Program-made: the position numbers and the translations under genes
In this document: in pieces, positions 1 to 45,024 of the stretch
Position numbering within the stretch: position 1 is the first letter of the stretch
Layout: each line of letters opens with the position of its first letter
The notes under the pieces: model-generated
The model's input: the letters and a program-made list of their open reading frames with translations, nothing else
Database searches by the model: none
What the model was told of the DNA's origin: nothing
Assembly (NCBI GenBank): GCA_016936575.1
Contig: JAFGXQ010000176.1
Coordinates: 1 to 64,000, forward strand
DNA from: Deltaproteobacteria bacterium
GTDB taxonomy: Bacteria > Myxococcota_A > Polyangia > JAAYKL01
Direction of reading: 5' to 3'
DNA length: 64,000 nucleotides

Positions 1-32
1 GTTTCAATCCACGCCCCCGTGATGGGGGCGAC
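1..32 (-). CRISPR. Leader-proximal type I-C CRISPR repeat (array continues off the left edge)
   Basis: The first 32 bases match the type I-C repeat class. Read on the minus strand the repeat starts GTCGC and ends TGGATTGAAAC. A 7-bp stem (CGCCCCC/GGGGGCG) with loop ATCAC forms its centre, and the last 11 nt would be the 5' handle that Cas5c leaves in this subtype (known family behaviour). The cas operon is also on the minus strand and ends 187 bp away, so this should be the first, leader-end repeat, with spacers at lower coordinates outside the window. Only one copy is visible, so the call rests on its sequence and the adjacent cas genes. Confidence 0.9.
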
Positions 33-219
33 AGTACGTACAATATCCTATTGAAATAAAAGGTCAATTTTGATGTGAAACGCTAACTTCGATTCTAATT
101 TCGATTCGATTGTCAAAGAACGCCTTGGTTCTGCCATTGCTTTCTAAAAACCGAATAAAACAACAGAGATACGAATTCCGCTAACCAAGTTGGGTTTTAA
201 TGTGAAAAACACCTTAGCG
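33..219 (-). promoter_or_regulatory. CRISPR leader with candidate promoter
   Basis: AT-rich 187-bp gap between the cas2 stop and the first repeat, where a type I-C leader is expected. On the minus strand a TTGACC (62-67) and TATTGT (40-45) pair with a 16-bp spacer would start transcription at or just before the first repeat. A further TTGACA-like hexamer lies at 111-116. A direct repeat TTCGATTC occurs at 88-95 and 100-107. The promoter is inferred from motif match only. Confidence 0.55.
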
Positions 220-510
220 TTAAAGAATCATCGGCTCGTCAATGGACAAATAATCCTTTTGCCCGTGATGTTCCAACCGTCTACGCCAATGCTTGCCGAG
301 AAAATAGAATCTTAGCGAATCTTCCTTGGGGTCATATAGTTTCAATAATCGAGATTTCAGCTTCTCCCATTGAGCTGGCTCCAAGTCACATTCATAGACT
401 GAATACTGAACTCTGTTGCCATAGTCGAGAACTTCCTTTGAAATTTGCCTCAATCGCTTTCGACCGGCGGCGGTTTCAGTGCAGACATCATACGATACAA
501 CAACCAACAT
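220..510 (-). CDS. cas2: CRISPR-associated endoribonuclease Cas2
   Basis: A 96-aa protein of typical Cas2 size, starting with the ferredoxin-like strand MLVVVSYDV that carries the conserved Asp8. Cas2 forms the core of the Cas1-Cas2 spacer integrase. The start is set at 510 rather than four codons upstream: GGAGGT (515-520) is ideally spaced from this ATG, and the ATG overlaps the cas1 stop as TAATG, indicating translational coupling. It is the last gene of the cas operon and lies next to the leader. Confidence 0.95.
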   Translation of the reverse strand: MLVVVSYDVCTETAAGRKRLRQISKEVLDYGNRVQYSVYECDLEPAQWEKLKSRLLKLYDPKEDSLRFYFLGKHWRRRLEHHGQKDYLSIDEPMIL

Positions 511-1544
511 TATGACCTCCAAAGAAATGCAGGATAGTAGTCCACATCGCCACGGATATACCGTGCAAGCAACAATGCCTGCGTATGAAACAATAATCCT
601 ATCTTCACATTCTCTTTAATCGCGGGATGGAAAATGCTTTCCTGTTTTCGCTTTTGATATTCGGTCAACACTGTCTTTCGCGCAGTATCAGCAATGAAGA
701 CCGCCCCATTTTCCTTGTAAGAAAAATCATTGGATTGGATTTGCCGCAGGTTTATTAGTGACAAACACAGCCGATCGCCGACAAACGCGCGAAACTCTTC
801 CATCAAATCCAGCGCCAGACTCTGCCTGCCAGGCTTGTCGCGATGAAGAAAACCAACATAGGAATCAAGGCCAACTGCTTCGAGTGCGGAGGCGCAATCC
901 TGTAACAGCATTGCGTAAACAAACGACAACAGCGCATTCACAGGATCTTTGGGCGGCCTTCTGTTTCTGCACTTAAAACCAAAATCCTGCCGTTGCTGAC
1001 TGATTAAATTTTCGAATACATCGAAGTACACATTGGCAGCTTCTCCCTCCCGCCCACGTAACTCGTCCAGGTTCTCAACACGTTCCAACCGTATCAGTGT
1101 TTCTTTCATATTGTCGCACGCACTGCGCAGTTTTTCGCTGCCTTCAGCATCAGGTCGGTTGCGGGCAGACTTGGCTATTACCGAACGGGAATTGGCAACT
1201 TTGGCCCCAATCATGTTTCTGGCTATTTCGACGCACCGCTTTTCGTCGTCGGCGATGCGATACTGCTCTCTGCGCAGCAAAACATTGCCATTCTTGCGAC
1301 CCACGATGCGCGCCTGGAAACGCCCGTATTCAGAAAAGTACGCCACACCAATACTGTTTTCCATGCAATGGTGCATCAACTGCGGGGACAGATTCACTCT
1401 TCCAAAACAGAAAATATTGGACAGCGCCAAAATGGGAACCTGCAGCAGTTTGGTATTTCCCTGTTCTACGCTCACCGTTTCACGCTCTTTGTGCAGGTAG
1501 GCGCCATCCTGAGTCACAAACAATGTATTCAGTAGCTTTTTCAT
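510..1544 (-). CDS. cas1: CRISPR-associated endonuclease/integrase Cas1 (type I-C)
   Basis: 344 aa, the usual length for Cas1 of subtype I-C. The metal-binding residues of the family can be placed at Glu168 (GREGEAAN), His234 (GFLHRDKPGR) and Asp246 (LALDLMEEF). The protein inserts new spacers together with Cas2; in this subtype Cas4 helps with PAM selection. The start overlaps the end of cas4 by 4 bp (ATGA) and the stop overlaps the cas2 start by one base. No sign of decay. Confidence 0.96.
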   Translation of the reverse strand: MKKLLNTLFVTQDGAYLHKERETVSVEQGNTKLLQVPILALSNIFCFGRVNLSPQLMHHCMENSIGVAYFSEYGRFQARIVGRKNGNVLLRREQYRIADDEKRCVEIARNMIGAKVANSRSVIAKSARNRPDAEGSEKLRSACDNMKETLIRLERVENLDELRGREGEAANVYFDVFENLISQQRQDFGFKCRNRRPPKDPVNALLSFVYAMLLQDCASALEAVGLDSYVGFLHRDKPGRQSLALDLMEEFRAFVGDRLCLSLINLRQIQSNDFSYKENGAVFIADTARKTVLTEYQKRKQESIFHPAIKENVKIGLLFHTQALLLARYIRGDVDYYPAFLWRS

Positions 1545-2224
1545 GGTTCAAACGGTTCTTCAAAAAGGATTTTCTCGTAATATTTGCGAGTCATCACATG
1601 ATCCCATTTAGGCTGGCACACATCAAACAGGGAACAGCTGTCGCACTTTTTTTGGTAGGTCGCTTTGGGCGTGCGACCGGAATCAACCAGGTCATGCAGT
1701 TCCAAAATCAAACCAATCGTCTCTTCCCTAAGCGCGCTATCAAATTCAACCAGCTGCCGTTTTTTCTTTTCGCCATAAAACAAAGCTCCGCTGCCTATGC
1801 TGACGCCAAGCTGTTCCTCCAGACAAATCGCCTGAGCACAAAGCTGTACCGTGTCAACATTATCTTTTTTGGGTTTTCCCTTCTTGTATTCAACCGGAAA
1901 CGGCGCCCAAAAACCATCACAGCGATAAAGACGTACCGAGCCACGTGACTCACCAGTTTTATGAAACTCCACCACATCCGATTGCCCAACCAATCCATAT
2001 TCATACGAAACCAGACGTAACGACCGCGCCGTCCGAATATCCCCCCGCGTCTCATGACTTTCAGTATGAACCTTCTCATGCAACAGCTCCCCCAAAACCG
2101 TCGCACGATTCTCAGCCCACTGCTGCTCCACATGAATCAACGCGCACTGACGCTTGCAAAACGCCAGGTGTTGCAGTGCGGAGATCATGACGAGCTGGTC
2201 TTCGGTGTACATGGAATGGTCCAA
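1541..2224 (-). CDS. cas4: CRISPR-associated exonuclease Cas4
   Basis: 227 aa with the RecB-type nuclease residues His49, Asp83, Glu112 and Lys114 (VEYKKG). Candidate Fe-S ligands are Cys23 or Cys27 in FCKRQC near the N-terminus and Cys194, Cys197 and Cys203 (CDSCSLFDVC) at the C-terminus. Cas4 trims prespacers and enforces PAM orientation during adaptation. It begins 2 nt after the cas7 stop; a second in-frame ATG four codons downstream (2212) is an alternative start. It overlaps cas1 by 4 bp. Confidence 0.95.
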   Translation of the reverse strand: MDHSMYTEDQLVMISALQHLAFCKRQCALIHVEQQWAENRATVLGELLHEKVHTESHETRGDIRTARSLRLVSYEYGLVGQSDVVEFHKTGESRGSVRLYRCDGFWAPFPVEYKKGKPKKDNVDTVQLCAQAICLEEQLGVSIGSGALFYGEKKKRQLVEFDSALREETIGLILELHDLVDSGRTPKATYQKKCDSCSLFDVCQPKWDHVMTRKYYEKILFEEPFEP

Positions 2225-2226
2225 TA

Positions 2227-3078
2227 TTAGAAACCATCGACTATTTCTGGTTCAAGACCATCCAGCTTTTCAACAGCAAAGGTGGCGTCCGGATTAACTG
2301 TTAGACTTCGATGAACGGTTGCAGATGAGTATTGACCCGCTTTGGAATTGTGTTTCCACCAAATAACCTTCTCTACCTTCATAGAACCTTCTGGCCTCGC
2401 AGACGACGCATCGCCTTCAAAAAGTCTGGGAAGAACATCCTTGATGCTTTCAGCATCATCGTCACTAAAACCAGTTCGCTCAGCTAGTTGTGGGCTCATC
2501 GCGCCATAAGTTACATATACAGCCTTATCGACCCGATGTTTCATCCCCATTGTGTCAGAACTTCGTTTGGTGCCATCACCTTCACCACTAACGCTCTTTG
2601 TGATTTGAGTGCTGGTCACGCCAACTGGTTCAACACTGAATGCCGATTGAATGGAGACCGGTCCACGAATAGGAATTGAGACTCCGTCTTTTTCAGAACC
2701 TTTGAAGGCGAAGAGTTGACCGAAACTACGGACATCCAGCCATTTTTCACAAGCCATTTGTCCTGCTTGTTCAGGTTTGGTCTTTTTACTGTTAAAGGCA
2801 TCTTTGCCCAAACCAAATTCACTGGATTCAGCACGTTCTTTTAGGCTAGGCATGCCATCTATTTTATTGTCATCGGATTGAACAAAAATAGATTGGCCAT
2901 TTGCTAAAAGTCGATTTCTAATTTTTCTTTTCAAACAAACATCTGATATTTCACCGAATCCATCGTAATCGACCCGCGGTCGATTACCATTCAGAGGGTC
3001 ACCATTGGGATTGGCATTTTTAACGGACAGGATTATGGCAAAATCAATTTTGTTTTCGAGCGTCATTTTCATTTTCAT
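2227..3078 (-). CDS. cas7c: Type I-C Cascade backbone protein Cas7 (Csd2)
   Basis: 283 aa with the characteristic N-terminal block of Csd2 (AIILSVKNANPNGDPLNGN), which belongs to the RRM-like Cas7 fold. Multiple copies coat the crRNA in the type I-C Cascade. Three in-frame ATGs (3078, 3072, 3066) lie close together. The first overlaps the cas8c stop as ATGA, but the GGAG element is only one base from it and about 7 bases from the second, so initiation at 3072 is equally or more likely. Confidence 0.95.
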   Translation of the reverse strand: MKMKMTLENKIDFAIILSVKNANPNGDPLNGNRPRVDYDGFGEISDVCLKRKIRNRLLANGQSIFVQSDDNKIDGMPSLKERAESSEFGLGKDAFNSKKTKPEQAGQMACEKWLDVRSFGQLFAFKGSEKDGVSIPIRGPVSIQSAFSVEPVGVTSTQITKSVSGEGDGTKRSSDTMGMKHRVDKAVYVTYGAMSPQLAERTGFSDDDAESIKDVLPRLFEGDASSARPEGSMKVEKVIWWKHNSKAGQYSSATVHRSLTVNPDATFAVEKLDGLEPEIVDGF

Positions 3079-5054
3079 TCTCCTTCTATTTCTATTTCGG
3101 TTTCCTGATTGTCGTTGTTACTTTTCGTCCACGCTTGTTTCTGACAATGATATCCCAACAGAAACTCGCCAGTTAAGGCTTTGTCGTCAGCAAAATCTTC
3201 AGGTGCAAAGGCTGCCTGAACAGCATCTAACTCTTTCTTTCGGTTCACTAGAAATCCTGTGCGATTGGCTTGCAGTCGCTGCATATACGGCTGTAGTCCC
3301 AACTCAATGGTTCGCCATGTGGAAAAAGGCCTGTCAGCGAATCGCTGCATGAGTCGCGCTGCTGATGTTGGGCGATTTTCACCTGCTACTCGCAACGCTG
3401 TTTCTTCGATATATTCAGCTATCGCGAGCAGACGGCCATAGAGGTAGTCTTTTGTTTTTAAATCTTCTTCCAATGCCATTTTGTATTCTCTCCTCTCCTG
3501 AGTGTTGGGGTGGCGCTGAAAATATCCTCTGTATAGTGCACAGGTTACTCCCATGTTGCGCTCCCATTCCCAATGTTCACAGTTGTTACGATTTGACGCA
3601 CGTCGTACCGCCGATTCCAATATGTCTCTGGGAATCGGCCTGCCATCAACAATGCAAGGCATGATTCTCTCAATAACGCTTTTTTTAAGCGTATCATTGC
3701 TTTTCAAAACTGCACCATAGGCAGCATCAGCGATTACTCTGGGTGCAGGACTGGATATTGGCCAAACAGTTTTCGACTTAGGTTTCTTTTTCCCTTTTGA
3801 ATCAGGCACTTCGATAGTGTGGCGTTGAAACCAGGCAAACTGCCGATGCCAACTCTCAATCCGACCCAGAAATTCGCTGGCCAACAATTGCCGATAATAG
3901 ATGATTCCCATCCGTCCGGGAGTTGCGGAATCCAGTCCCATTATGACAATCTGCTCGTTCGGATCTAGCTTTGCCGAGTAGCCCGCAAGATACTTTTTCA
4001 ATTTGTTTGAGAAGGATTCTCCAATGTCCACGGAGTGGTCAATGCTCGCCTCTTCATTAGTTGGTGTTTCAGTTTCAAATATCAGCTCAGATGAAAAAAG
4101 GTTGTACGAGGATTGGAGCGGTTCCGGTGTTTCCTTTCCAGAAATAGCCCAGGAAACGAACACCTGGTCGCCATTCCGAAACCCTTGTCGGCTAATCAGC
4201 CACCTCAACGCATTATGAGCTTTTTGCGTAACATCAAAACTGATTCTTGCCGCCTGAGAACCATCTTTGTCTGCAAAGCGCCCCCTGAACGTAAACCCAG
4301 AGGAATCATTGGAGGATATGAGTTTCGCTTTATCACCTGTATGCCGTAGCTTCGCCGGATGGTTTTCTGCAATACAATCATGTTCCCCCCTTACAAAACA
4401 AAAATCTTCGTTTGAACCGATGCTGCCATCATATGAGATCCAGCTTTGGTGAAGGTCGCTGTCTGTCCATGTTGAACTATTCAATTCCCCATCAATTTCT
4501 ACAGACCAACAAATAAGTGCATCACCTTGTTCTACTGCACCTTTGTTTTTGGGTAGTACCTTATATATTTTTGGGGCTTCCTTGTCGGCATCTGTCCATG
4601 TGCTCATCAACATTGAATTTTCGTCAACGTGTAACACCGAACAATTGACCAGGTCAGAAACTACATTTCCCTTACTAGTATATCTGTAAACAGCGATAGC
4701 CTTCTCGTTGCGATATTTTGATTCACACCATAAACGCAACTGTTCATGGTAACCATCATAATAGCTTTTCTTCTTGCCACCAAATTCAGGATAATCTTTT
4801 GCCACGTACTGAATTTTATCAGCTAATGGATGAGGCGCTTCGCCGCTGGAACGCCCTGCTGATTTTTCAGTTGCTGGCAGCACAACCTGTGTTTTTTCCA
4901 GTACGGATGCCCGTTTGAAGTTACCTTCCCCATCAATGACAATATTGATATGTGCATTTTGAAGAGTATGGTTCACAGGCATTAATTTTTCGCCAGGTAA
5001 ATCCAGCAATATCCCTCTGTTATACGTTTCGTACAATGTCGCCAGCCAACTCAT
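3075..5054 (-). CDS. cas8c: Type I-C Cascade large subunit Cas8c (Csd1)
   Basis: 659 aa, somewhat longer than many Csd1 proteins. It is assigned from its place between cas5 and cas7 in the I-C gene order and from Csd1-like blocks such as the N-terminal LYETYNRGI and MGLDSATPGRMGIIYYRQL. Cas8c recognises the PAM and nucleates the complex; in several I-C systems an internal start in this gene yields a small Cas11-like subunit, and internal ATGs in the last third would allow that here (inference). It overlaps both neighbours by 4 bp. Confidence 0.93.
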   Translation of the reverse strand: MSWLATLYETYNRGILLDLPGEKLMPVNHTLQNAHINIVIDGEGNFKRASVLEKTQVVLPATEKSAGRSSGEAPHPLADKIQYVAKDYPEFGGKKKSYYDGYHEQLRLWCESKYRNEKAIAVYRYTSKGNVVSDLVNCSVLHVDENSMLMSTWTDADKEAPKIYKVLPKNKGAVEQGDALICWSVEIDGELNSSTWTDSDLHQSWISYDGSIGSNEDFCFVRGEHDCIAENHPAKLRHTGDKAKLISSNDSSGFTFRGRFADKDGSQAARISFDVTQKAHNALRWLISRQGFRNGDQVFVSWAISGKETPEPLQSSYNLFSSELIFETETPTNEEASIDHSVDIGESFSNKLKKYLAGYSAKLDPNEQIVIMGLDSATPGRMGIIYYRQLLASEFLGRIESWHRQFAWFQRHTIEVPDSKGKKKPKSKTVWPISSPAPRVIADAAYGAVLKSNDTLKKSVIERIMPCIVDGRPIPRDILESAVRRASNRNNCEHWEWERNMGVTCALYRGYFQRHPNTQERREYKMALEEDLKTKDYLYGRLLAIAEYIEETALRVAGENRPTSAARLMQRFADRPFSTWRTIELGLQPYMQRLQANRTGFLVNRKKELDAVQAAFAPEDFADDKALTGEFLLGYHCQKQAWTKSNNDNQETEIEIEGE

Positions 5055-5755
5055 AGCGAAGCCTCTTCCTTCACAGCAGAGTTCAAATTTTCATCCAACC
5101 CAAATTGTTTGGCGGTCATTTTTCGGATGAATCTTCGCATAACGCATTCTTCGGGGCGCGGAAATTCCAAGATTCCCCCACGTAGCGTAGCATTCCAAAA
5201 TCGACCGGCAAATTCATCCTTTCCGGTCTCATCAGGATAGTCAAAGCTGTGGAACATCAGCCCAAATCCCAGCTCGTCAATTTGATCATAAGCGCCTTTG
5301 CCTTCCCCAAAATTGCAAGGCTCTACGTATCCCTGACAGTCCCTCACTCCTAGAAAAACATCCTGCCGCCCACCTTTTTCGAGCATCCGCGTCGCAATAC
5401 TGTAATGCTTTCCGTCAATCCGATCCCCGGACAACTCAGGTCGGTGCTCATTCCATTCGAAATGCGCTTCGACCTGGTATTCCACATCATGAAGAAAAGT
5501 ATAGATAGCCAACGAATTGCCGCCTCCCCACACCAACGGTTTAGTACCTTTTGTCTGAGTACGCAGCGGTTTCATCACCCGCACCCTGTCCACATACCAA
5601 ATCAAAGTTGGTTTCCAATAAATGGACTTCAGTACCCCCTTAATCGCCTCGTAGGTTGGAACATGATACGAGCACTTCTCTCCGCCAGTCTTAGTCACTG
5701 GATCGGTGAAGAGTGCATATCTGCCCCATAGTTTAAAACTGACGCTGTTTTTCAT
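5051..5755 (-). CDS. cas5c: Type I-C crRNA endoribonuclease/Cascade subunit Cas5c
   Basis: 234 aa, typical of Cas5d/Cas5c. In subtype I-C, which lacks Cas6, this protein cuts pre-crRNA at the base of the repeat stem and stays bound to the 5' handle. The N-terminus (FKLWGRYALFTDP) and the VKSIYWKP-like segment (GVLKSIYWKPTLIWYVDRV) fit the family. A strong AGGAGG lies 6 nt before the ATG. It starts 15 bp after cas3. No cas6 is seen, consistent with the subtype. Confidence 0.94.
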   Translation of the reverse strand: MKNSVSFKLWGRYALFTDPVTKTGGEKCSYHVPTYEAIKGVLKSIYWKPTLIWYVDRVRVMKPLRTQTKGTKPLVWGGGNSLAIYTFLHDVEYQVEAHFEWNEHRPELSGDRIDGKHYSIATRMLEKGGRQDVFLGVRDCQGYVEPCNFGEGKGAYDQIDELGFGLMFHSFDYPDETGKDEFAGRFWNATLRGGILEFPRPEECVMRRFIRKMTAKQFGLDENLNSAVKEEASL

Positions 5756-5770
5756 CTGTTTCCTCCTGTA

Positions 5771-8191
5771 TTATACAATTTGAAAATCCAGAGTGCCGAC
5801 TTCCTCTGCGGATAATCCAAATTCCTGACTGTAATAACGTTCATCCAGGTAATAGATCATTTTTCCCTGCTGCACAGGATGAACAGCTTGTGCTTCCTCA
5901 AGTTTCCTCCAAATGTTTGGAAAAACATTCACTGAGTATTTTTGAGCCTTCTTTAGCAGCCGAAATGACTGCGCAGGTTCATGTGCCGCGCAAAGTTCTG
6001 CAATAATATTTTTGCCATCTCCATAAGGAACAATCACGGCCTGAGTCGGCGCATCAATCGCCTGAAAAACTTTCCCGGCAGTTTTAAATGATTGCTGCAA
6101 AGAGACAGATGCTCGCTGGCGTCCTATGTTATTGGGGTTGTCACTTAATAAGTTTAAAAGATTGTCTGTTCGCCCTATCTGTTTTGCGTCAACTTCATAT
6201 TTCATGTCTTTTGCGCGATCAAAGAAGTAGTACTTGAAGTATCGTTCCATTACTGCAGGACTGAGAAAATCTTCATGCTCTTCTTCTCCAAGAACACGCA
6301 TTGCTTTTTCCTGGCCAATCTTAATGTCTTCCAGCATCGAGATCTTCTCTTCGGCTGGATTGACAACAAAGACGTCTGACGTTTCATGCCTTCCATTACG
6401 GTTGCATCGACCGGCAGCTTGTGCGATGGAATCCAACCCGGCAAGAAAACGAATGACCACATTAAAGTCCACATCTACACCGGCCTCGATCAGCTGAGTG
6501 GAAATACAAAGAACGGGTTCCTGAACATCCGATGAAATACGTCTTGTAACTTCGGTTAAAATCTTCTTTCGATGAGCCGGGCATAGACTTGTGCTTAAAT
6601 GATATACGTTTTTTTCGCCCACTATTTGGCTGCAACGCTCATAAAGCACCCTCGCCCATTGTTTAGTATTGACGATAACGAGGCAATTGCCCCTGGCATT
6701 GAACTGCTCAGCCGCGAAAGTGGCCAATTCCTCTTCACTCCAGCCACCGGGCTGTGTCTTGTCGACGACATTCACTCGCTTCAAGTTCCTAAACAATTCG
6801 GAGGTATCGGATACGAGCTCATTTTCTTGTGGAATTTTCAGCGCACCGTACTTCTCATTGACACCTGACAGCAACGGTTGAGTAGCAGTGCACAAGACTG
6901 CTGTGCTCCCGGAGTGGTCGACAAGAAACTGAAGCGCATTGTTAAATAAATGAACACATTTAACCGGCAATGTCTGAATTTCATCGAAGATAATCAATGA
7001 GTTTGCAAGATTGTGTAGTCGTCTCGCGCCTCGCGTTCCACCGCCAAACAATACTTCGAGGAACTGAACCATGGTCGTAAAAATGATCGGCGCATCCCAG
7101 TTTTCTCCAGACAATTTAGATTGCCATGTTTGGCGCTCAGGTTCCAAATTGGAATGATGCTCGAGCACCCAGGGAAACGCATCATCATCTTTTTCAATTG
7201 CGTCCCGTATGACCTGTGCGTTTTGCTCAATAATAGAAGTGAAAGGAATAACGTAATAGATATGGTCCAATCCGTGCTTTTTCGCGTGATGGAGAGCGAA
7301 ACGCATTGAGGTATAGGTTTTCCCTCCCCCTGTTGGCACCGTTAGCGTATAAATATTCTGAGGGCCATCAGCCCTTTTTAGGCACTCGTCAGATATCTTT
7401 GTACGAATTTTATCTACGTCATTGCGAACCTGGAACGTCGCAATCTTTGATTCAAGACGATCAATTGCTGGCTGCCAGTTGACATCACCACTGCGTCTGA
7501 ACTTCTTTCTTCCTGGCTCTTCAAAATCAGCGCTATCAATTCGATCCGCATCAATTAAGCAGCTAAAAAGAAATCGAGTGAAAAAACCGATGCGAAATGC
7601 CTTCAGCCGAAGTTCTTCATTTTGATCAGGAGCGATAATAACAGCAAGTCTTGCCCAAAATTGCTGTAAAAAAGTTCTTATGGCTAAAATTTCGAGTCTA
7701 TCAATTATCGTTTTGTCGCATGAGACCAGACACTCTTGAAGATGTGTGCTCTCGTCAGATTTGGTAATCCTTCGGACGAAATCATTTTTTCCTTCTGGCA
7801 GTAAACAATCAATCATTCCTCCGTGATGAGAAGCCAAACACACCGCCAAGATTTGGCAAAGAAGCTTCGCCTGTTCCCCATTGCCCGAAAATTTTTGCCA
7901 AATCCATTGACTACCTGCCGTAGAATGATCGATTTTCCCCTTCAACATTGACGAATCGACATAGTCATCATCAATATCCGGATTCAGAAGATCTGTAGAT
8001 GATTGAATGTATTTCTGAAATGCACTGCTGTACTTACCTAAATCATGAAGGAGCCCCAACAATTTTCCAACATCAGCAAGTCCAATCTTATTTGTCAGGC
8101 GACCACAAATACTAGACACATTAATCAAATGCGCCGCTACGGATTGCTCTGTTTTGTCGAACTGGCGATAATGCGCGATAAACTCAGTCAT
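5771..8191 (-). CDS. cas3: CRISPR-associated helicase-nuclease Cas3 (HD-DExH)
   Basis: 806 aa. The N-terminal HD nuclease shows His21, HD at 49-50 (LLHDLGKYSSAF), His89 (DHSTAG) and HH at 122-123. The SF2 helicase follows: Walker A VPTGGGKT (Lys291), Walker B FDEIQ (402-406), motif III CTATQP near 434, then QLIEAGVDVDF and the arginine-finger motif QAAGRCNRNGR. Cas3 is recruited by Cascade to nick and degrade target DNA. All key residues are intact. A GAGGA site lies 7 nt before the ATG. It is the first cas gene, 21 bp downstream of a possible small ORF. Confidence 0.96.
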   Translation of the reverse strand: MTEFIAHYRQFDKTEQSVAAHLINVSSICGRLTNKIGLADVGKLLGLLHDLGKYSSAFQKYIQSSTDLLNPDIDDDYVDSSMLKGKIDHSTAGSQWIWQKFSGNGEQAKLLCQILAVCLASHHGGMIDCLLPEGKNDFVRRITKSDESTHLQECLVSCDKTIIDRLEILAIRTFLQQFWARLAVIIAPDQNEELRLKAFRIGFFTRFLFSCLIDADRIDSADFEEPGRKKFRRSGDVNWQPAIDRLESKIATFQVRNDVDKIRTKISDECLKRADGPQNIYTLTVPTGGGKTYTSMRFALHHAKKHGLDHIYYVIPFTSIIEQNAQVIRDAIEKDDDAFPWVLEHHSNLEPERQTWQSKLSGENWDAPIIFTTMVQFLEVLFGGGTRGARRLHNLANSLIIFDEIQTLPVKCVHLFNNALQFLVDHSGSTAVLCTATQPLLSGVNEKYGALKIPQENELVSDTSELFRNLKRVNVVDKTQPGGWSEEELATFAAEQFNARGNCLVIVNTKQWARVLYERCSQIVGEKNVYHLSTSLCPAHRKKILTEVTRRISSDVQEPVLCISTQLIEAGVDVDFNVVIRFLAGLDSIAQAAGRCNRNGRHETSDVFVVNPAEEKISMLEDIKIGQEKAMRVLGEEEHEDFLSPAVMERYFKYYFFDRAKDMKYEVDAKQIGRTDNLLNLLSDNPNNIGRQRASVSLQQSFKTAGKVFQAIDAPTQAVIVPYGDGKNIIAELCAAHEPAQSFRLLKKAQKYSVNVFPNIWRKLEEAQAVHPVQQGKMIYYLDERYYSQEFGLSAEEVGTLDFQIV

Positions 8192-8212
8192 GCTTAATCC
8201 TCGAAGTTTTTT

Positions 8213-8440
8213 TCACTTCTCATGCACCTCTATCCCAATCACTCCCCCAACTCTACCACTCCCCTCGGACAAAAATTGTCCAATGTAACCGGTTGAAATC
8301 AAGAAAGTTTTACGTGCTCCATTTATAACCGCTCGATTCCCCCCATCCAAAGATGCCCTCATCCGCTCCTTTTCGCAGGGCATAAAACCCAGTGCTAAAT
8401 TGGGGATCCATGCGAAGTGATTTGGCGTATTGGAGCGCAT
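8213..8440 (-). CDS. Possible small hypothetical ORF between WYL regulator and cas3
   Basis: A 75-codon frame fits exactly between the regulator and cas3: its ATG directly follows the regulator's TAA stop, and its stop is 21 bp before cas3. A GGAGG lies about 11 bases upstream of the ATG, inside the end of the regulator gene. The product (rich in Arg, Gly, Ser; no signal peptide or membrane segment) matches nothing I recognise and its composition is not clearly protein-like. It could be a translationally coupled small protein or chance reading frame in the operon spacer. Confidence 0.3.
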   Translation of the reverse strand: MRSNTPNHFAWIPNLALGFMPCEKERMRASLDGGNRAVINGARKTFLISTGYIGQFLSEGSGRVGGVIGIEVHEK

Positions 8441-9514
8441 TTAGTATTCACCCTCCAAATCGGAGAACAGATCTTTGGTTTGAGTGTCTTGCAATGCCTC
8501 GCGGTGATTCATGTCTTTCATGGGCGCGATTTCGGCGCCGTATTGCGACAGGGCTGCTTGCAGTTGACCGGCGACTTCTTTTCTTAGCGACTCGGGTTTT
8601 ATCACCTCCACGTGAGGACCGAAAGACAACAGCCAATTCACCAGCTCGAAATTGATGGGAACATTAAGCGTCATTTGCAGCGTGCCATTGGGTAGCGTTC
8701 GCAAACGCTGCGTGGGATGATACGTGCGAAGCTGAATGTACCGCTTGGTTTTGGGCGTAAAATGCAAAACCACCTTTTGCGGCGTACCCGGAACAATACA
8801 AAACGCACTGGCGAAATATTCCTCGGGATTCCAATTCTTGGGATACTCATACGAAACAGACCGTTGCCATGCCGCGCTGCTGATTCGCTCCAGTGCAAAA
8901 ATCCGTATTGCCTCGTCCTTCTCGTCGCATGCTGCCGCCAAGTACAACCCGCGTTTGTACACCACCAGCGAATACGGACACAGCAACCATGAATTGAGCT
9001 TACCGTTTGAACTGCGATATCGAATTTTCAGCTTTCGCTCCATTAACAGAGCGGAAAGACACTCATCGAGCACCTCGCTGGATTTTCCCTTTAATCGTTT
9101 GGGACCTTCGTGAATTAGATAGACCTTGTTGACGAGCTTTTGGGCATTGGCAATGTCATCGGTTTTAGACAGCTTACTCTCAATGCGCGAATACACCCGT
9201 TCGATGGCGTCCTCCAACGACGTGTTTTCTAAGAAATCAAAACACCGCCTCGCTGTAAACAACGCCATCACTTCGTGAAGGGAATACCGAACTTCGATTT
9301 TTCTGGATGCAGCGGACTCATACCACACCGGTGGGTCCACTATGTTGTCGCACTCCAACTGCGCACCCATGAAAGAAAGCGCTTCAAGATCACGCTTAGC
9401 CGTCTTCGTGCTTACATTAAAATCATCGCAGATACGTTTTATGGATAACCGACCGCCACCTGAAAAACGCATTCGCAACGAATTTAATCGTTCCGTCTTC
9501 GTAAATTGCTTCAC
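8441..9514 (-). CDS. WYL-domain helix-turn-helix transcriptional regulator
   Basis: About 357 aa. The N-terminus (TKTERLNSLRMRF...SIKRICDDFNVSTKTAKRDLEAL) is a DeoR-like winged HTH. The middle part is a WYL domain (ALLMERKLKIRYRSSNGK... PYSLVVYKRGLYLAA), and the C-terminal part fits the WCX extension. WYL proteins sense ligands, often nucleic acids or nucleotides, and frequently control CRISPR and other defence loci; role here is inferred from its position just upstream of and in line with cas3. The start chosen is GTG at 9514, preceded by AGGA at good spacing; the frame stays open to a TTG at 9577 that lacks a ribosome site. Confidence 0.88.
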   Translation of the reverse strand: MKQFTKTERLNSLRMRFSGGGRLSIKRICDDFNVSTKTAKRDLEALSFMGAQLECDNIVDPPVWYESAASRKIEVRYSLHEVMALFTARRCFDFLENTSLEDAIERVYSRIESKLSKTDDIANAQKLVNKVYLIHEGPKRLKGKSSEVLDECLSALLMERKLKIRYRSSNGKLNSWLLCPYSLVVYKRGLYLAAACDEKDEAIRIFALERISSAAWQRSVSYEYPKNWNPEEYFASAFCIVPGTPQKVVLHFTPKTKRYIQLRTYHPTQRLRTLPNGTLQMTLNVPINFELVNWLLSFGPHVEVIKPESLRKEVAGQLQAALSQYGAEIAPMKDMNHREALQDTQTKDLFSDLEGEY

Positions 9515-9812
9515 AATGGTTCCTGTTGCTGAATGAAAATGACGACTCACGATGTCACGGTAGGTGATGTAAGTCAAAAATTCGTCATAAAGTTATGTGA
9601 TAATTCTCCCAACCTTATCGGCAACGCGGAAGGCACACAGGTCATCCCATCACTTCACATATTTAGATTTCGTTCAAGTTCGCCGGTGCCATTTCGAAAT
9701 GGGGGTGTTGGTGATCAGGGATTGGAAGGGCGCGTGGACACGCCGAGCATTCTTACTTTATTCGTGAAGAGACCGCAAAAGGTTGGATTGGTTGGCGATT
9801 CCCAATCTGCGG
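9515..9812. other. Non-coding region upstream of the WYL-cas operon
   Basis: No convincing gene is seen on either strand. A plus-strand frame crosses this stretch and the heptamer array but has no ribosome site and composition unlike neighbouring genes. The region should hold the promoter of the regulator-cas operon; I could not pick a clear -35/-10 pair. Confidence 0.5.
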
Positions 9813-10008
9813 GCATTGGCGGTAGGCGATGCGATATTGGATGGGAGGAGGTCGATATTGGGGGAGGGAGTGGCAGATATTGGACAGGGGGGACCGGATA
9901 TTGGGGGGAGGAAGGCGAATATTGGATGCCGGTGACTGAATATTGGATGTCGGCGGCCAGATATTGGATAGGGGATAGACGATATTGGACGGGGTTGCCC
10001 GTTATTGA
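9813..10008. repeat. Array of ATATTGG heptamers at 21-bp spacing
   Basis: Eight perfect copies of ATATTGG begin at 9834, 9855, 9877, 9898, 9919, 9940, 9961 and 9982. Intervals are 21, 22, 21, 21, 21, 21 and 21 bp. Degenerate copies extend the phase on both sides (GCATTGG at 9813, TTATTGA at 10002). The 14-bp spacers differ in sequence but are mostly G-rich on the plus strand. Spacing of two helical turns would put every heptamer on the same DNA face. It lies about 300 bp upstream of the WYL regulator and just after the stop of the 252-aa gene. Not a CRISPR: the conserved part is shorter than the variable part. Confidence 0.85.
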
Positions 10009-10025
10009 GAGGGTTTGCGGGGTTT

Positions 10026-10784
10026 TTATTGGTTTACGGCATTTTTCGTGAGGGCGGTTTCAGCGCTGGATTTGGTTTGGCTGCGACGCAAGTAGGCGCT
10101 CGCATACCCCTTGCGGCGGTGTGGGTCTCTCCAGAAGACGTATTGGCCGCATTCGCGGATGGCGTCGACGGCTTCTTTGAGGTGGGTGTAGGCCTGGTCG
10201 CGGATGCGTTTGATTTCGTTGTCGTTGCCTTTGTCGGCGGTGGCTTCACCGCGCAGGGTGCCCATTTCGTTGCTCATTTCGGCGGCCAGTTCGATTTTGT
10301 TCACGTCAAAGCCGATGGCCTTGAGGGGCGCCGGGTTTTCACGGCCGATGATGGACAGGTTGTTGAGGTCCTGAATCATGTCGGCGTCGCCGCTGCCCTC
10401 GGCTACGGCGCGAACGCGGCTGAGGAGGGTGTCGTCATCGCGATAGGCGTAGCGCATGGCGTGAAGCAGTTCGTCGCGCAGGTCGTACGCCTCGGGAGAC
10501 TCTTCGTTCCAGCGTTGCTGGGCCTCTTCGCGGCCGCGCATCACGTTGTTCCACAGGGACTGGGCTTCGCTGGCCGCGTCGCTGCGATAGGGCAGGTCCT
10601 CGAACAGGGTGTTGGACAAACCGGCTTTCTGCAGTTCGGGCAGGTCTTTTTGCGCCCAGTGGTACAGGGTTTCCGCCTCCTGAATGTACACCCCCATGGG
10701 CATGGTGGGTATCTTCACGTCCTCGGGCGCGATGGCGGTAATTGTGGGTAGTTTTTGTTCGTAGGTAATACTTTTGGTACTCAT
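10026..10784 (-). CDS. Hypothetical protein, 252 aa
   Basis: Not recognised. The product is soluble-looking, without signal peptide or membrane segment, rich in Glu, Asp, Ala and Arg, and probably mostly helical. The central part (ELLHAMRYAYRDDDTLLSRV) and the segment ELAAEMSNEMGTLRGEA look like packed amphipathic helices. A purine-rich GGGGGA precedes the ATG. A TTGACA hexamer on the minus strand at 10905-10910 is a possible -35. It stands alone, separated from tgt by about 330 bp, and its stop lies 18 bp from the heptamer array, so any functional link to that array is speculation. Confidence 0.8.
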   Translation of the reverse strand: MSTKSITYEQKLPTITAIAPEDVKIPTMPMGVYIQEAETLYHWAQKDLPELQKAGLSNTLFEDLPYRSDAASEAQSLWNNVMRGREEAQQRWNEESPEAYDLRDELLHAMRYAYRDDDTLLSRVRAVAEGSGDADMIQDLNNLSIIGRENPAPLKAIGFDVNKIELAAEMSNEMGTLRGEATADKGNDNEIKRIRDQAYTHLKEAVDAIRECGQYVFWRDPHRRKGYASAYLRRSQTKSSAETALTKNAVNQ

Positions 10785-20118: not shown

Positions 20119-21189
20119 ATGAAGAAACGATTTTTCCTGGTGTGGTTGTGTGCTTTTGCGGTTGTTTTGGTGGGGGCGGCGGTCATCGGATGCGGCGATG
20201 ATGCACCCGGGGATTCCAGCGGTGCGGACGGCGATACAGACAGTGACGGGGACGCCGACGGTGACAGCGACGGTGACAGCGATGGTGATAGCGACAGCGA
20301 TGCAGATACAGGCAATGTGGATCAGACATTCGGTTGCGCGGTTTTTCCGTCCGATAATCCGTGGAATACAGATGTTTCGGCGTATCCGGTGCACGAGAAC
20401 TCCGATGCGTTCATCGCATCAATCGGCGCCAACACCGGGCTTCACATGGATTTCGGCACCGTATGGGATGGGGCGCCGAACGGTATTCCATATGTGGTGG
20501 TGGATTCCAGCACACCGCGCGTAGACGTGACATTCGGTTATGCCGATGAAAGTGATGTCGGTCCGTATCCCATTCCCGAAGGCGCGCCCGTTGAGGGTGG
20601 ACCGGATGGATCAGGCGACAGGCATATTCTGATGGTCGATAGGGATGACTGTATGTTGTACGAGCTGTATGCCGCATGGCCGCCGGGTGAGGGCGATAAT
20701 CCCAGCAGCACAGAGTGGTATGCGGGCAGCGGTGCCATTTTTGATTTGAACAGCAATGCGCTTCGTCCGGACTACTGGACCAGTGCCGATGCGGCGGGAC
20801 TACCCATTTTCCCAGGGTTGGTCCGATATGAAGAGGCGGTGGAGGAAGGGGTTATCGATCACGCGTTGCGGTTTACGGTGAGTACGTCGCAGGCAGCGTT
20901 TATTCATCCGGCCACCCATTACGCCAGTAGCAATACGAGTCCGGACGTGCCGCCCATGGGGTTGCGCCTCCGCTTGAAATCTGACTATGACATCAGTTCG
21001 TTCTCCCCGGAAATTCAGGTAATTGCCCAGGCAATGAAAACGTATGGTATCATTGTTGCCGATAACGGCAGCGATTGGTATATCTCGGGCGCACCCAATG
21101 ACAATTGGAGCGATGATCATCTGCATGAACTCGATGTAATTCAGGGGAGTGATTTCGAAGTAGTATATACAGGCGACCCGATATACTAA
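20119..21189 (+). CDS. Asp-rich-linker lipoprotein, uncharacterised family
   Basis: 356 aa. Lipoprotein signal ending in VIGCGDD (Cys about residue 25), then an acidic GD/SD linker (about 35-65), then a globular domain starting near CAVFPSDNPWNTDVS. Blocks such as FIASIGANTGLHMDFG, HILMVDRDDCMLYELY and DHALRFTVSTSQ recur in an uncharacterised family seen in soil and myxobacterial genomes (from memory). No catalytic motif is obvious. A near-perfect AAAGGAGG lies 6-7 nt before the ATG, so translation should be strong. Divergent from the ECF sigma operon, which may control it. Confidence 0.82.
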   Translation: MKKRFFLVWLCAFAVVLVGAAVIGCGDDAPGDSSGADGDTDSDGDADGDSDGDSDGDSDSDADTGNVDQTFGCAVFPSDNPWNTDVSAYPVHENSDAFIASIGANTGLHMDFGTVWDGAPNGIPYVVVDSSTPRVDVTFGYADESDVGPYPIPEGAPVEGGPDGSGDRHILMVDRDDCMLYELYAAWPPGEGDNPSSTEWYAGSGAIFDLNSNALRPDYWTSADAAGLPIFPGLVRYEEAVEEGVIDHALRFTVSTSQAAFIHPATHYASSNTSPDVPPMGLRLRLKSDYDISSFSPEIQVIAQAMKTYGIIVADNGSDWYISGAPNDNWSDDHLHELDVIQGSDFEVVYTGDPIY

Positions 21190-32632: not shown

Positions 32633-34879
32633 ATGTTTTTTGCTTACAAATATAATTGTACCTTACGCTTCTTTTTTTTACTGATATTTTCGGCGGTGCC
32701 TCTTGTCGCAGGATGCGGCAATAAAACCGGAATTTCAGCGTATTGTGTCACCAATGAAGAGTGTGCGTCGGGGCAAGTTTGTTTGGATGGGACGTGCCAG
32801 ACGTTGAATGTTGATTCCGAGCCGATTTTGATAGACACCAACTCTGAAACATCTACTGATGCCGATATCGATACAGACGCCGATACCGATACAGACGCCG
32901 ATACCGATACAGACGCCGATACCGATGCGGACACCGATACCGATGCCGACACGGATACCGATGCGGATGCGGACACGGATGCGGATTCTGATGCGGACAC
33001 GGATTCGGATACGGATACCGATACGGACGCGGATACCGATACCGATACGGATTCTGATACCGATACGGACGCGGATACCGATACAAATACGGACACGGAT
33101 TCGGATACGGGTTCGGATACCGATACCGGAACAGAAGATGCCTGCGCAACTGCGGTGTGCGATACGCCGCCCGCAGCGCAATGCGCCAGTGATTACATTT
33201 TAACCGAGTTTGATCAGCATGGAGAATGTTTGAATGGCATCTGTTATTACGCGTATACCGAAAGTTGGTGCGAGTTTGGCTGCACCGCAACGGAGGAAGC
33301 GGCTGTCTGTGTTCCGGATGCGTGCGAGAACGTGGCGTGTGTGACTGAGCCCGATGATGCGTGTGACGGTGAGTCTGTGTTGAAACGATATGCGGAAGAA
33401 GGGGAATGCCTGTATGGCGATTGCAACTACGCGTACGAACTGATTCCTTGCGAGATGGGGTGTGTGGTTCAGACGGGAAATGATGTTTGCTCCGGTGACC
33501 CGTGTGAAGGGGTGGTGTGTGATGCAGTGCCTGACGATGTGTGTGAATCCGCTGATTCTTTGTGGCAATACACCGGCCACGGCGAGTGTTTTGATGGCGG
33601 TTGTGAGTACGACCACATAACTGCCGACTGCGCGTTCGGGTGTCAGGAAGAAAGTGGTGACGATGTTTGCGCACCTGATCCGTGCGACGGCGTGGTGTGT
33701 GACAACGCACCCGATGATGAATGTGATGAAAACGGCAATCTGCAGAAGTACCCTGCCGTGGGGATATGCAGCAACGGAGAATGCGAATATGTGTTCCAAA
33801 CCATTCTGTGTGAACTCGGCTGTGGTGCGCAGAGTGGAGACGATGCGTGTCTCAACGATACCGATTCGGGAACAGATTCGGGCACAGATACGGCGACAGA
33901 TTCGGAAACAGACAGCGATACCGGCATTGTTCAGATTTGTGGGAACGCATTTGATGACTACGATGGAGACGGGTACACGGAACAGAACGGTGACTGTGAT
34001 GATTGCAACGAATGGGTGGGGCCGATGGCTTTGGAAGTTCCTGCCAACAACATTGACGATGATTGCGACGGCGCACAGGACGAGCCGATTTCTCCATGTG
34101 ATTGCGGAGATGACGCGGATTGGGTCGCAGCTATGGACTTGTGTGACGCCAAGTATTACTTCAGCCAGAGCACATCCCATGCCTCAGGGAAAGACCCGGC
34201 GGTGCTCGGCGCATTGGATGTGATTTCGTATTACGGAGATGCAAGCAATGATCTGGGTGTGAAGGCAGGTTGCAAGTATGCGGTGTTGTCCACGGGTTCC
34301 ATTCATTCCGGCATACCGCAGGAGGGACATGATTGGATGGCGACAAGCGTTGACCCTGCCCCTGAATATAATGGGTACACACCGTTGGGGAGCGACGGCG
34401 CAACAACATTCGACACGGTGCAGCTTTACGTTGCCCTGTTTGTTCCCGCGAATGCCCGCGGTTTTTCGTTTGATTTTATTTATATGAGCACAGAGTATCC
34501 CGAATATGTGGGAGATTTGTACAACGATGCGTTTTACGCAATCATTCAATCGGAAGGAACCAATAACTGGGCAACGACCAATATCGCTTTTGATCAAACA
34601 CCACAACAAAATGAAATCTGCGTCAACTCCGCTTTTTTTGAAGACCCGCCGGAGACCAGTCTGGAAGGAACCGGCTTCGGCTGGGACAGTGCAGAGAATA
34701 TGCACATCGGCGGATCCACCGGTTGGTATCAGACGGCGTGGCCGGTCGAACCCAATTCGGTGTTTTATCTGACATTTTCCATTCATGACGAAGCGGACGG
34801 GTTGTACGATTCGCTGGTTATCATTGATAATTTTCAATGGCTTCTTACCGAGCCTGTGGGAACCACAACCCAGTTGTAA
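32633..34879 (+). CDS. Large Asp/Thr-linker, Cys-rich lipoprotein with choice-of-anchor L-like C-terminus
   Basis: 748 aa. Lipoprotein signal ending LVAGCGN (Cys about 28) and a short Cys-rich EGF-like part (NEECASGQVCLDGTCQ). A linker of about 90 residues follows, made almost only of Asp, Thr, Ala and Ser (about 75-165). Next come four tandem Cys-rich units of about 55 aa, each with a C-V-C...DDxC...GEC...C-Y...C-GC pattern. After a second short linker comes an MYXO-type segment (DGDGYTEQNGDCDDC). The C-terminal 250 residues (FNAF-type SAFFEDPPETSL, FSIHDEADGLYDSLVIIDNF) resemble choice-of-anchor L domains. It is surface-exposed and probably adhesive; function unknown. AGGAGG precedes the ATG. 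Confidence 0.82.
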   Translation: MFFAYKYNCTLRFFFLLIFSAVPLVAGCGNKTGISAYCVTNEECASGQVCLDGTCQTLNVDSEPILIDTNSETSTDADIDTDADTDTDADTDTDADTDADTDTDADTDTDADADTDADSDADTDSDTDTDTDADTDTDTDSDTDTDADTDTNTDTDSDTGSDTDTGTEDACATAVCDTPPAAQCASDYILTEFDQHGECLNGICYYAYTESWCEFGCTATEEAAVCVPDACENVACVTEPDDACDGESVLKRYAEEGECLYGDCNYAYELIPCEMGCVVQTGNDVCSGDPCEGVVCDAVPDDVCESADSLWQYTGHGECFDGGCEYDHITADCAFGCQEESGDDVCAPDPCDGVVCDNAPDDECDENGNLQKYPAVGICSNGECEYVFQTILCELGCGAQSGDDACLNDTDSGTDSGTDTATDSETDSDTGIVQICGNAFDDYDGDGYTEQNGDCDDCNEWVGPMALEVPANNIDDDCDGAQDEPISPCDCGDDADWVAAMDLCDAKYYFSQSTSHASGKDPAVLGALDVISYYGDASNDLGVKAGCKYAVLSTGSIHSGIPQEGHDWMATSVDPAPEYNGYTPLGSDGATTFDTVQLYVALFVPANARGFSFDFIYMSTEYPEYVGDLYNDAFYAIIQSEGTNNWATTNIAFDQTPQQNEICVNSAFFEDPPETSLEGTGFGWDSAENMHIGGSTGWYQTAWPVEPNSVFYLTFSIHDEADGLYDSLVIIDNFQWLLTEPVGTTTQL
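32857..33135 (+). repeat. Low-complexity GAYACN/GAYGCN coding repeat
   Basis: A run of 6- and 12-bp units alternating Asp codons with Thr, Ala or Ser codons, coding for the long linker of the lipoprotein. Units are imperfect, with varied third bases, which suggests selection for the peptide rather than a recent slippage product. Confidence 0.85.
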
Positions 34880-43197: not shown

Positions 43198-45024
43198 GTG
43201 CGAATCGGAGCTTTTTCAAGAATTCTTGCAACCGTTTTTGTTGTTTCATTGATCGGATTGATACCCGTTTCAAAAGCCAATGCGCAGGGTGCTGACATGC
43301 AGGCCGTCGCTCTGAAAAAACAGGCGATGAGCGCCTACGGAGACCTCAATCTCGATCAGGCGGTGAGACTGCTGGATCAGGCTGCGGCGATGGGGCCGCA
43401 ACTGTCGGCAAATACCGTTGCACAGATTTACGTAAGCTACGGTTTGGTATACGTGGGTGGTCACGGCGATAACGCTCGCGGCCAGGAATATTTTACGATT
43501 GCACGATGCCTTGACGCCACCATTCAAATTGATCCGCTGTACTCAACCCCCGAAGTTGATATGATTTTTAAAATGGCCCAGTCCAGGGCAACCCCGGCCA
43601 CATGCCCGTCTTTGCTGGCCAACGTCAGCTACATGGGCGGCGGTATGCAACCCATGCAGCCTGTACAGCCCATGCAGCCGGTACAGCCGATGCAGCCTAT
43701 GCAGCCCATGCAGCCCGGCATGCTACCCGCCTGTGGTATGCACAATGCACCGATGCAGCAACGCAAATCATATGAACTTCCCCTGGCTATTCAGATGGAT
43801 CCGGCCAAGGCAGCCACACTGAATCGGGTGGTCGTAAAATACGCATTCGATGGCGGGGCAACCTATTTCGAGTTGGATATGACCAAAGGCGACCAGGGCT
43901 GGGTGACCGGCATGCTGAGTTGTGATGAAGGGCAGATTACCGCGTTCGATCCAACAACGATTACGTATTTCATTGAAGGATACGATATGTCCGGCGTTTT
44001 GGTTTGCGGGCACGGTTCTGCCGCGCAGCCTTTCACTGTGAGTATGAATCCGAATGCAGCAGTGGTCTCCGGGCTTCCCGGAATGACCGCGCCGAACGCC
44101 TGTGCGGAGTGTCCCCCGTGGGATCAGAACTGTCACCAAGAGAAGGGCGAACAGATTCCGTGTTTCGCCGACGATGAGTGCCCCGGTGGGAAATGTCTGG
44201 ATACAGGCTATTGCGAGAGCACCGGCGGCGGCGGCGGTGGCGAAGGCTGGGAAGACGGCCCTGCAGATGGGGAAGGCAGCGGCCCTAAACATTTTTATGT
44301 GAATATTTCCGGCGGCACGGGAGCGGGTTTTTTTAGTTCACCCAACAGCTGGTACGTGACTTCCGCCCTGAACGGCACGTCCTGGAATGATTTGTACGCA
44401 TATACAGAATCCGGTGGACTGTCTCAGGGGGCTGCCGGCGGGTTACCTCTTCGGTTATTGATCGGGTTTCAGGTAGGACGGAAGGTGGGGCTGGAACTCG
44501 GTTTTCGAGAAGATATTTCCTCTGCCTGGAGAAAACAACGAAATATTGCGTACTGCGCTTCAGACCTTGACTCCTATGTGGATGGCCAGGACGGCGGTGG
44601 CGGACTGGTGTGCAGGGCGCCGCTGGCAGATCCTGATGCCGGCATTTTCGGTGCGTGGGTGGTGAATGATCAATACATTTATTCTACCGAGAGTGACGGC
44701 ATTGCAAAATCCTGGCTACTCAATTTCAGGGTGCGCGGACGTCTGGTCGATAAAAACGGCGTTCAGTTCTCGCTGTTCGGCGGCGCCGGCTACGGGCACC
44801 TGTTTTTTGCACCCCGTATTGAAGACATGGATCTCGACGGCGAAGACGATCGTGTTGTGGTTACCCCCGGTATGATCAACTTGGAAGTCGGCCCCGGCTT
44901 TGCCTACTATCTGAACCGTCATTTCGGATTCATTATCGAGCTGCCAATTGACCTGGTGTTCGGCGAAGATGCCTCGTTCGGTATGAACGCTGATCTGATG
45001 TTGGGTATCAGCTTCGGAGGCTGA
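43198..45024 (+). CDS. Outer-membrane barrel protein with N-terminal helical repeat domain (paralog 2)
   Basis: 608 aa from GTG 43198 (GGAG 8 nt upstream). Order of parts matches paralog 1: signal peptide ending KANAQG, TPR-like N-terminus (SAYGDLNLDQAVRLLDQAA, PLYSTPEVDMIFKMAQ), MQP/VQP repeat linker, Ig-like segment (ITYFIEGYDMSGVLV), Cys-rich stretch (CAECPPWDQNC...CPGGKCLDTGYC), poly-Gly and C-terminal barrel (about 375-608). A 184-bp gap with TTGACA-like elements separates it from paralog 1, so it may have its own promoter. Function unknown. Confidence 0.78.
   Translation: MRIGAFSRILATVFVVSLIGLIPVSKANAQGADMQAVALKKQAMSAYGDLNLDQAVRLLDQAAAMGPQLSANTVAQIYVSYGLVYVGGHGDNARGQEYFTIARCLDATIQIDPLYSTPEVDMIFKMAQSRATPATCPSLLANVSYMGGGMQPMQPVQPMQPVQPMQPMQPMQPGMLPACGMHNAPMQQRKSYELPLAIQMDPAKAATLNRVVVKYAFDGGATYFELDMTKGDQGWVTGMLSCDEGQITAFDPTTITYFIEGYDMSGVLVCGHGSAAQPFTVSMNPNAAVVSGLPGMTAPNACAECPPWDQNCHQEKGEQIPCFADDECPGGKCLDTGYCESTGGGGGGEGWEDGPADGEGSGPKHFYVNISGGTGAGFFSSPNSWYVTSALNGTSWNDLYAYTESGGLSQGAAGGLPLRLLIGFQVGRKVGLELGFREDISSAWRKQRNIAYCASDLDSYVDGQDGGGGLVCRAPLADPDAGIFGAWVVNDQYIYSTESDGIAKSWLLNFRVRGRLVDKNGVQFSLFGGAGYGHLFFAPRIEDMDLDGEDDRVVVTPGMINLEVGPGFAYYLNRHFGFIIELPIDLVFGEDASFGMNADLMLGISFGG
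43645..43716 (+). repeat. Eight 9-bp units coding MQP/VQP
   Basis: Tandem units ATGCAGCCN or GTACAGCCN encode MQP-MQP-VQP-MQP-VQP-MQP-MQP-MQP inside paralog 2. Near-identical units suggest recent slippage and possible length variation; each unit keeps the frame. Confidence 0.9.

Follow-up and report, generated by a model that had tools for sequence, protein, structure and literature searches.

A family of all-helical proteins in Myxococcota and its 21-bp DNA arrays: a candidate two-part system

The window, that is, the whole analysed stretch of 64,000 nucleotides, starts with a type I-C CRISPR-Cas region. The repeat GTTTCAATCCACGC... is found at its very start, and positions 1-9577 contain the complete set of type I-C genes (cas2, cas1, cas4, cas7, cas8c, cas5, cas3 and WYL), with the gene of the WYL regulator ahead of the cas genes. 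A phased array of short repeats is located between the WYL gene and a gene encoding a 252-aa protein. As both genes are on the minus strand, the array lies behind the 252-aa gene and ahead of the WYL gene. The features of the region are as follows.

8441-9577, minus strand: WYL regulator gene (Pfam WYL/WCX), only a neighbour, outside the module on comparative evidence (control with 19 homologues)
9813-9819, minus strand: degenerate unit, GCATTGG on the plus strand, at the array's far end and keeping phase (from sequence)
9834-9988, minus strand: phased array of eight units of 21 bp, one of them 22 bp (from sequence and period statistics)
9989-10025, minus strand: stretch from the stop codon to the first exact unit, including the degenerate TTATTGA at about 10002, one base out of phase
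10026-10784, minus strand: gene encoding the 252-aa all-alpha protein, whose family is the partner of the array (from homologues and an AlphaFold2 model)

Exact copies of ATATTGG begin on the plus strand at positions 9834, 9855, 9877, 9898, 9919, 9940, 9961 and 9982, with steps of 21, 22, 21, 21, 21, 21 and 21 bp, just as an earlier sequence-only reading had described them. The first exact unit starts 38 bp past the stop codon of the 252-aa gene; in the sense of this gene, units start with CCAATAT followed by a variable stretch. The window contains 21 copies of ATATTGG compared to 7.2 +- 2.7 in shuffled sequences, none of 100 shuffles reaching 21, and eight of the copies are packed into 155 bp. 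The period-21 signal in the 300 bp beside the 252-aa gene was matched by none of 200 shuffles. The same reading had degenerate copies keeping phase at both ends, which is correct for GCATTGG at 9813 but not for TTATTGA, which is shifted by one base. It also regarded the 14-bp spacers as free apart from a G-rich bias. However, the unit on the sense strand of the 252-aa gene is CCAATATC...T..CC..C., and thus there is a second, weak CC box approximately 14 bp beyond the first one, whereas the G-rich bias is simply the C-richness of the sense strand. The conservation of the heptamer and its spacing, with helical phasing, is real and compatible with cooperative binding of a protein on one face of DNA. 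No named element with this layout was found.

Further copies of the repeated ATATTGG-N14, envisaged by that reading as a way to find the genes adjoining them, did not turn up: the source genome contains no other mismatch-free pair ATATTGG-N14-ATATTGG, and 58 relatives contain nothing beyond single chance pairs. In the two genomes tested, the array unit is confined to its own array. In a scan of 84,980 genomes, at least 120 stretches carried three copies of ATATTGG spaced by 20-22 bp. They belong to unrelated taxa, Acinetobacter and Prevotella among them, and we take them to be chance occurrences or other minisatellites. The Rfam search gave no match, and the scan for promoters and terminators yielded nothing exceeding shuffles. 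A 172-aa plus-strand frame spanning the array does not count as evidence of coding: units of 20-22 bp break the frame, also in homologous arrays. A coding heptapeptide repeat was rejected, since units of 20 and 22 bp break its frame and the sequences differ freely. Other tandem repeats of the window (32854-33128, 43645-43716, 20239-20295; periods 9, 12, 18, 24 and 42 bp) are unrelated to the array in sequence and appear to be of the coding type.

The AlphaFold2 model of the 252-aa protein (pLDDT 94.8) consists of helices throughout. A Sorangium member whose N-terminal tail is basic likewise gave an all-helical model (confidence 90.4). Foldseek comparison of these two confident models with PDB and a viral library produced no significant relative, and no recognisable DNA-binding fold was seen in the family protein. 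Pfam, NCBIfam, PHROGs and PDB sequences provided neither an informative sequence family nor relatives among Rep, ParB, ParR and TubR; the match to NCBIfam PQLLE (NF052641) is weak (E = 1.3e-4, 21.7 bits with a cut-off of 80). PADLOC assigned no defence family, a single weak match apart, and no relatives were found in phage and plasmid records or viral contigs. The charge of the window protein is about -13 in the core and +4 in the C-tail, and family proteins have acidic cores and usually basic tails. L184 and the Sorangium members L238-L244 carry lysine/alanine/proline-rich, histone H1-like N-terminal tails before the helical domain.

Members of this family, which has neither a name nor a functional annotation, occur in about one third of the genomes searched in the class (110 of 318) and also in further families of the phylum. 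The family is often present in many copies: one relative of the same genus gave 21 matches, another relative from the same family gave 13, and up to about 20 paralogues were detected per genome. The neighbours of the family genes are diverse, and no partner recurs among them. At the tgt locus of the congener G002 there is no counterpart of the gene-array pair. Two diverged members of that genome, L159 and L161 (G002:C226), share a contig and lie within approximately 8 kb of each other; only one of them has a clear array.

The sequence-only reading linked the array to the WYL/CRISPR locus, in which case it would be an operator through which the WYL regulator controls the type I-C CRISPR-Cas operon. 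WYL proteins bind DNA, and the array is indeed upstream of the WYL gene, whose own upstream region has a significant period. However, the 600-bp regions upstream of 19 other WYL homologues from relatives all lack a significant period at 19-23 or 40-44 bp. By contrast, an array of the same pitch is very often found beside homologues of the 252-aa gene, and arrays track the 252-aa family wherever it is located, beside diverse genes. The operator explanation is thus unsupported, and we consider it extremely unlikely. That reading held absence of the array beside homologous loci to count against a regulatory role; such absence does exclude the WYL gene as the partner, but leaves the 252-aa gene, which had also been named. 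Judged by sequence comparison, the array belongs to the 252-aa gene on its other side, and not to the CRISPR genes.

The association was measured by counting shared 4-mers at each lag of 14-61 bp and comparing the best lag with 200 Markov shuffles at significance level 0.01. Among the immediate 3' flanks of family genes, 34 of 63 have a significant period, and all 34 periods are at 20-22 or 40-44 bp. At these lags the signal was seen in 3 of 58 stretches at 300-600 bp downstream, 1 of 54 at 600-900 bp, 5 of 66 immediately upstream flanks, and at most one of 68 genes themselves. Among 35 unrelated genes from the same genomes, neighbours included, no 3' flank is periodic (Fisher p = 4e-9, a value that overstates independence, since the family members are related to each other). 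In a second set of 60 members, chosen by profile search so as to include more distant ones, periods of 19-23 or 40-44 bp were observed downstream in 18 of 56 cases and upstream in 16 of 60, along with some significant lags outside both ranges (14, 15, 17, 24, 33, 47, 60). A detectable array is missing from about half of the family flanks. Where present behind homologues of the 252-aa gene, it usually starts 5-120 bp past the stop codon; the arrays of Sorangium were judged with care, since some members have long N-terminal extensions. The mean over 130 unit lengths is 21.02 bp, that is, two turns of B-DNA. A widespread gene-plus-lattice module in Myxococcota is real and well supported. As regards the PQLLE family, the weakly matching L217 has a 21-bp array, while L209, which scores above the cut-off, has none in its 3' flank.

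The 3' arrays of homologues have the same build with different words, among them CCAATAAC, GCGCGGGA, CGGGGGA, ATCGGA, CCGTTT, CGGCT, CCGTATC, TACAGACA and TACGAAGCCC; CCAATAT, GTACAG and CTATCGC are further words of the family, each held inside its own array. Direct repeats prevail among near relatives of the window protein; among more distant members, units of 42-43 bp are common, with half-sites that alternate in orientation and form dyads, for instance CCGCCGGGTGACCTTCGACGTCACCCGGCGG in L302 and AGTACTCCGAGTACT in L166. In L189 and L172 the orientation flips within a single array. The proteins of L189 and L191 are 86% identical and their arrays have the word CCGTA in common; all units of L191 have the same orientation, whereas most units of L189 are reverse complemented relative to them. 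Position may change as well: L321 and L322 (41% protein identity) both have TCACTTCC/GGAAGTGA, in a downstream array in the former and an upstream array in the latter. The case nearest to the window is L151 (57% identity), with CCAATAAC against CCAATATC.

Each array strongly holds one box of 5-8 bp, although partly by construction, as this box served to register the units, and a weaker second box is observed roughly one helical turn off. The paralogues L182 and L183 are nearly identical, and they differ mostly outside the two boxes. Word similarity follows protein identity (Mantel r 0.36, 0 of 5000 permutations), and sense words are common to all six pairs with more than 80% protein identity and to few pairs at 40-60%. 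Since words change fast between members, conservation increases from the word to the protein and from the protein to the pitch.

One could imagine a neutral minisatellite, arising as 21-bp tandem repeats by replication slippage and then decaying. Such an origin agrees with the identical or nearly identical units in L238, L240 and L291 and with block duplications visible in L173. On the other hand, slippage would not prefer 21 or 42 bp at unrelated sequences beside one gene family, the 5-8 bp box is kept while the rest of the unit varies, and orientation alternates on the same lattice. The plain decaying repeat without heptamer conservation, which the sequence-only reading held against its own proposal, is not what is seen, and we regard the neutral explanation as distinctly improbable.

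What we observe looks like an undescribed system of two parts, a protein and an array. The chances seem to us about even that the array is the cis-acting half of this module and that the all-helical partner protein binds its word on DNA, a reading built on sequence comparison. The protein would recognise its own word at the level of double-stranded DNA, with several protein copies bound next to each other along one helix face, producing a nucleoprotein platform. Iteron and centromere proteins form such side-by-side platforms on DNA. The words would diverge so that paralogues of one genome do not cross-bind. Cognate recognition and platform formation are what we infer; the platform might serve in self-regulation, anchoring, insulation or marking, and as a working guess we favour a role at the locus of the gene itself, either anchoring or local silencing.

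The level of DNA is favoured by the two-turn pitch, by indifference to orientation and side, and by several observations on the possible transcripts. Dyad stems read on the sense strand contain 22 G-T and 32 A-C mismatches, that is, no excess of the pairs tolerated as G-U in RNA. Direct arrays on average fold no better than shuffled sequences, and RNA stem-loops were rejected as the common mechanism for this reason. In L291, a terminator-like hairpin, read by eye, is situated between the gene and the array. Against binding to DNA stand the acidic core of the proteins and the Foldseek search without a significant relative. Moreover, the word already differs in most pairs at 50-60% protein identity, and thus either recognition changes fast or the protein reads something else. 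The lack of a detectable array at about half of the family flanks also weighs against this reading. Finally, the sense strand is C-rich in 30 of 36 downstream arrays of near relatives, an asymmetry that counts against the DNA reading, as pure DNA binding does not predict it.

The same asymmetry, together with the mostly downstream position of the array in line with the gene, would suit an array working as RNA. Transcribed together with the gene or next to it, such an array would supply 21- or 42-nt units that the protein binds and perhaps excises, for use as guides or decoys; this would parallel TIGR-Tas, though with an unrelated protein. The closest look-alike is TIGR-Tas itself, where a lone protein gene is accompanied by a short-repeat array upstream or downstream (PMC12045711). 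TIGR arrays have short repeats, variable spacers, direct and hairpin forms, and locus-specific words (PMC12045711), and they are processed into small guide RNAs. However, the Nop domain that defines TIGR-Tas has no match in the family by Pfam scans, comparison with two archaeal Nop proteins gave an hhalign probability of 0.1, and Nop is absent from the 50 matches that Foldseek listed for each model, though Nop structures are present in PDB. The TIGR-Tas unit is about 36 nt, with alternating edge and loop repeats of 8-12 nt and spacers of about 9 nt, whereas a single word recurs every 21 bp in the window array, and the family keeps a constant pitch of 21 bp, with dyads of 42-43 bp in some relatives. 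Unlike the variable spacers of TIGR-Tas, those of several family arrays are identical (five identical units in L238), and the module is chromosomal in Myxococcota and absent from the phage and plasmid records searched. With the lack of G-U excess and the reversed orientation between L189 and L191 also against it, we consider action as RNA unlikely. Its special form, in which the proteins would be loaded with 21- or 42-nt array RNAs for target finding, seems less probable still; if true, this would be an RNA-guided family unrelated to Cas, OMEGA, Argonaute and Nop, expanded so that a myxobacterial genome contains many copies. Given the likeness to TIGR arrays, the choice between RNA and DNA is directly testable.

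The excess of C over G behind the genes of near relatives might also indicate an element of transcription end, such as a C-rich stretch for Rho loading. However, neither the second set nor the upstream arrays show a clear C/G skew, several arrays (L171, L173, L247) are G-rich, and neither the fixed pitch nor the upstream arrays would be explained. An element of this kind is very unlikely.

Returning to the protein that would bind its word on DNA, several known systems have a similar plan. Plasmid iterons are direct repeats of approximately two helical turns beside the gene of the Rep protein that binds them, and the family arrays too are repeats of about two turns beside a protein gene. However, the family has no Rep or winged-helix domain, it is chromosomal with many copies per genome, and no replication gene stands out among its neighbours. 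In the plasmid centromeres sopB/sopC and parR/parC, an array of direct or dyad sites is located beside the gene of the binder; the sopC units, which are 43 bp long and contain inverted heptamers, are similar to the dyad arrays of 42-43 bp in the family. Unlike these centromeres, the family has many different words within one phylum, without an NTPase of the ParA, ParM or TubZ type standing out nearby and without a match to the ParB or ParR families. The type III toxin-antitoxin system ToxIN combines one protein gene with a tandem repeat array upstream. Its toxin has a different fold, whereas the family protein is all-helical and the arrays occur downstream as well. No description of the gene-array module was found in the open-licence papers searched; the passages on repeats and duplication in the paper on Sorangium cellulosum So0157-2 do not mention it (PMC3696898).

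Thus the family travels with a DNA lattice whose sole constant is the two-turn pitch. Repeats that look like junk and genes annotated as hypothetical become a testable system, and paralogous protein-array pairs with different words in the same genome provide material for the study of how specificity is encoded.

Two further observations concern unusual members. L262 and L265 of genome G298, approximately 480-545 aa in length, are preceded by a G-rich lattice TGCGCAGGA(C/G)GG with a step of about 21-22 bp. The window's own genome contains truncated members, L179 (G000:C13) and L201 (G000:C144), with frames of 83 and 104 aa, which retain 20-21 bp arrays behind them.
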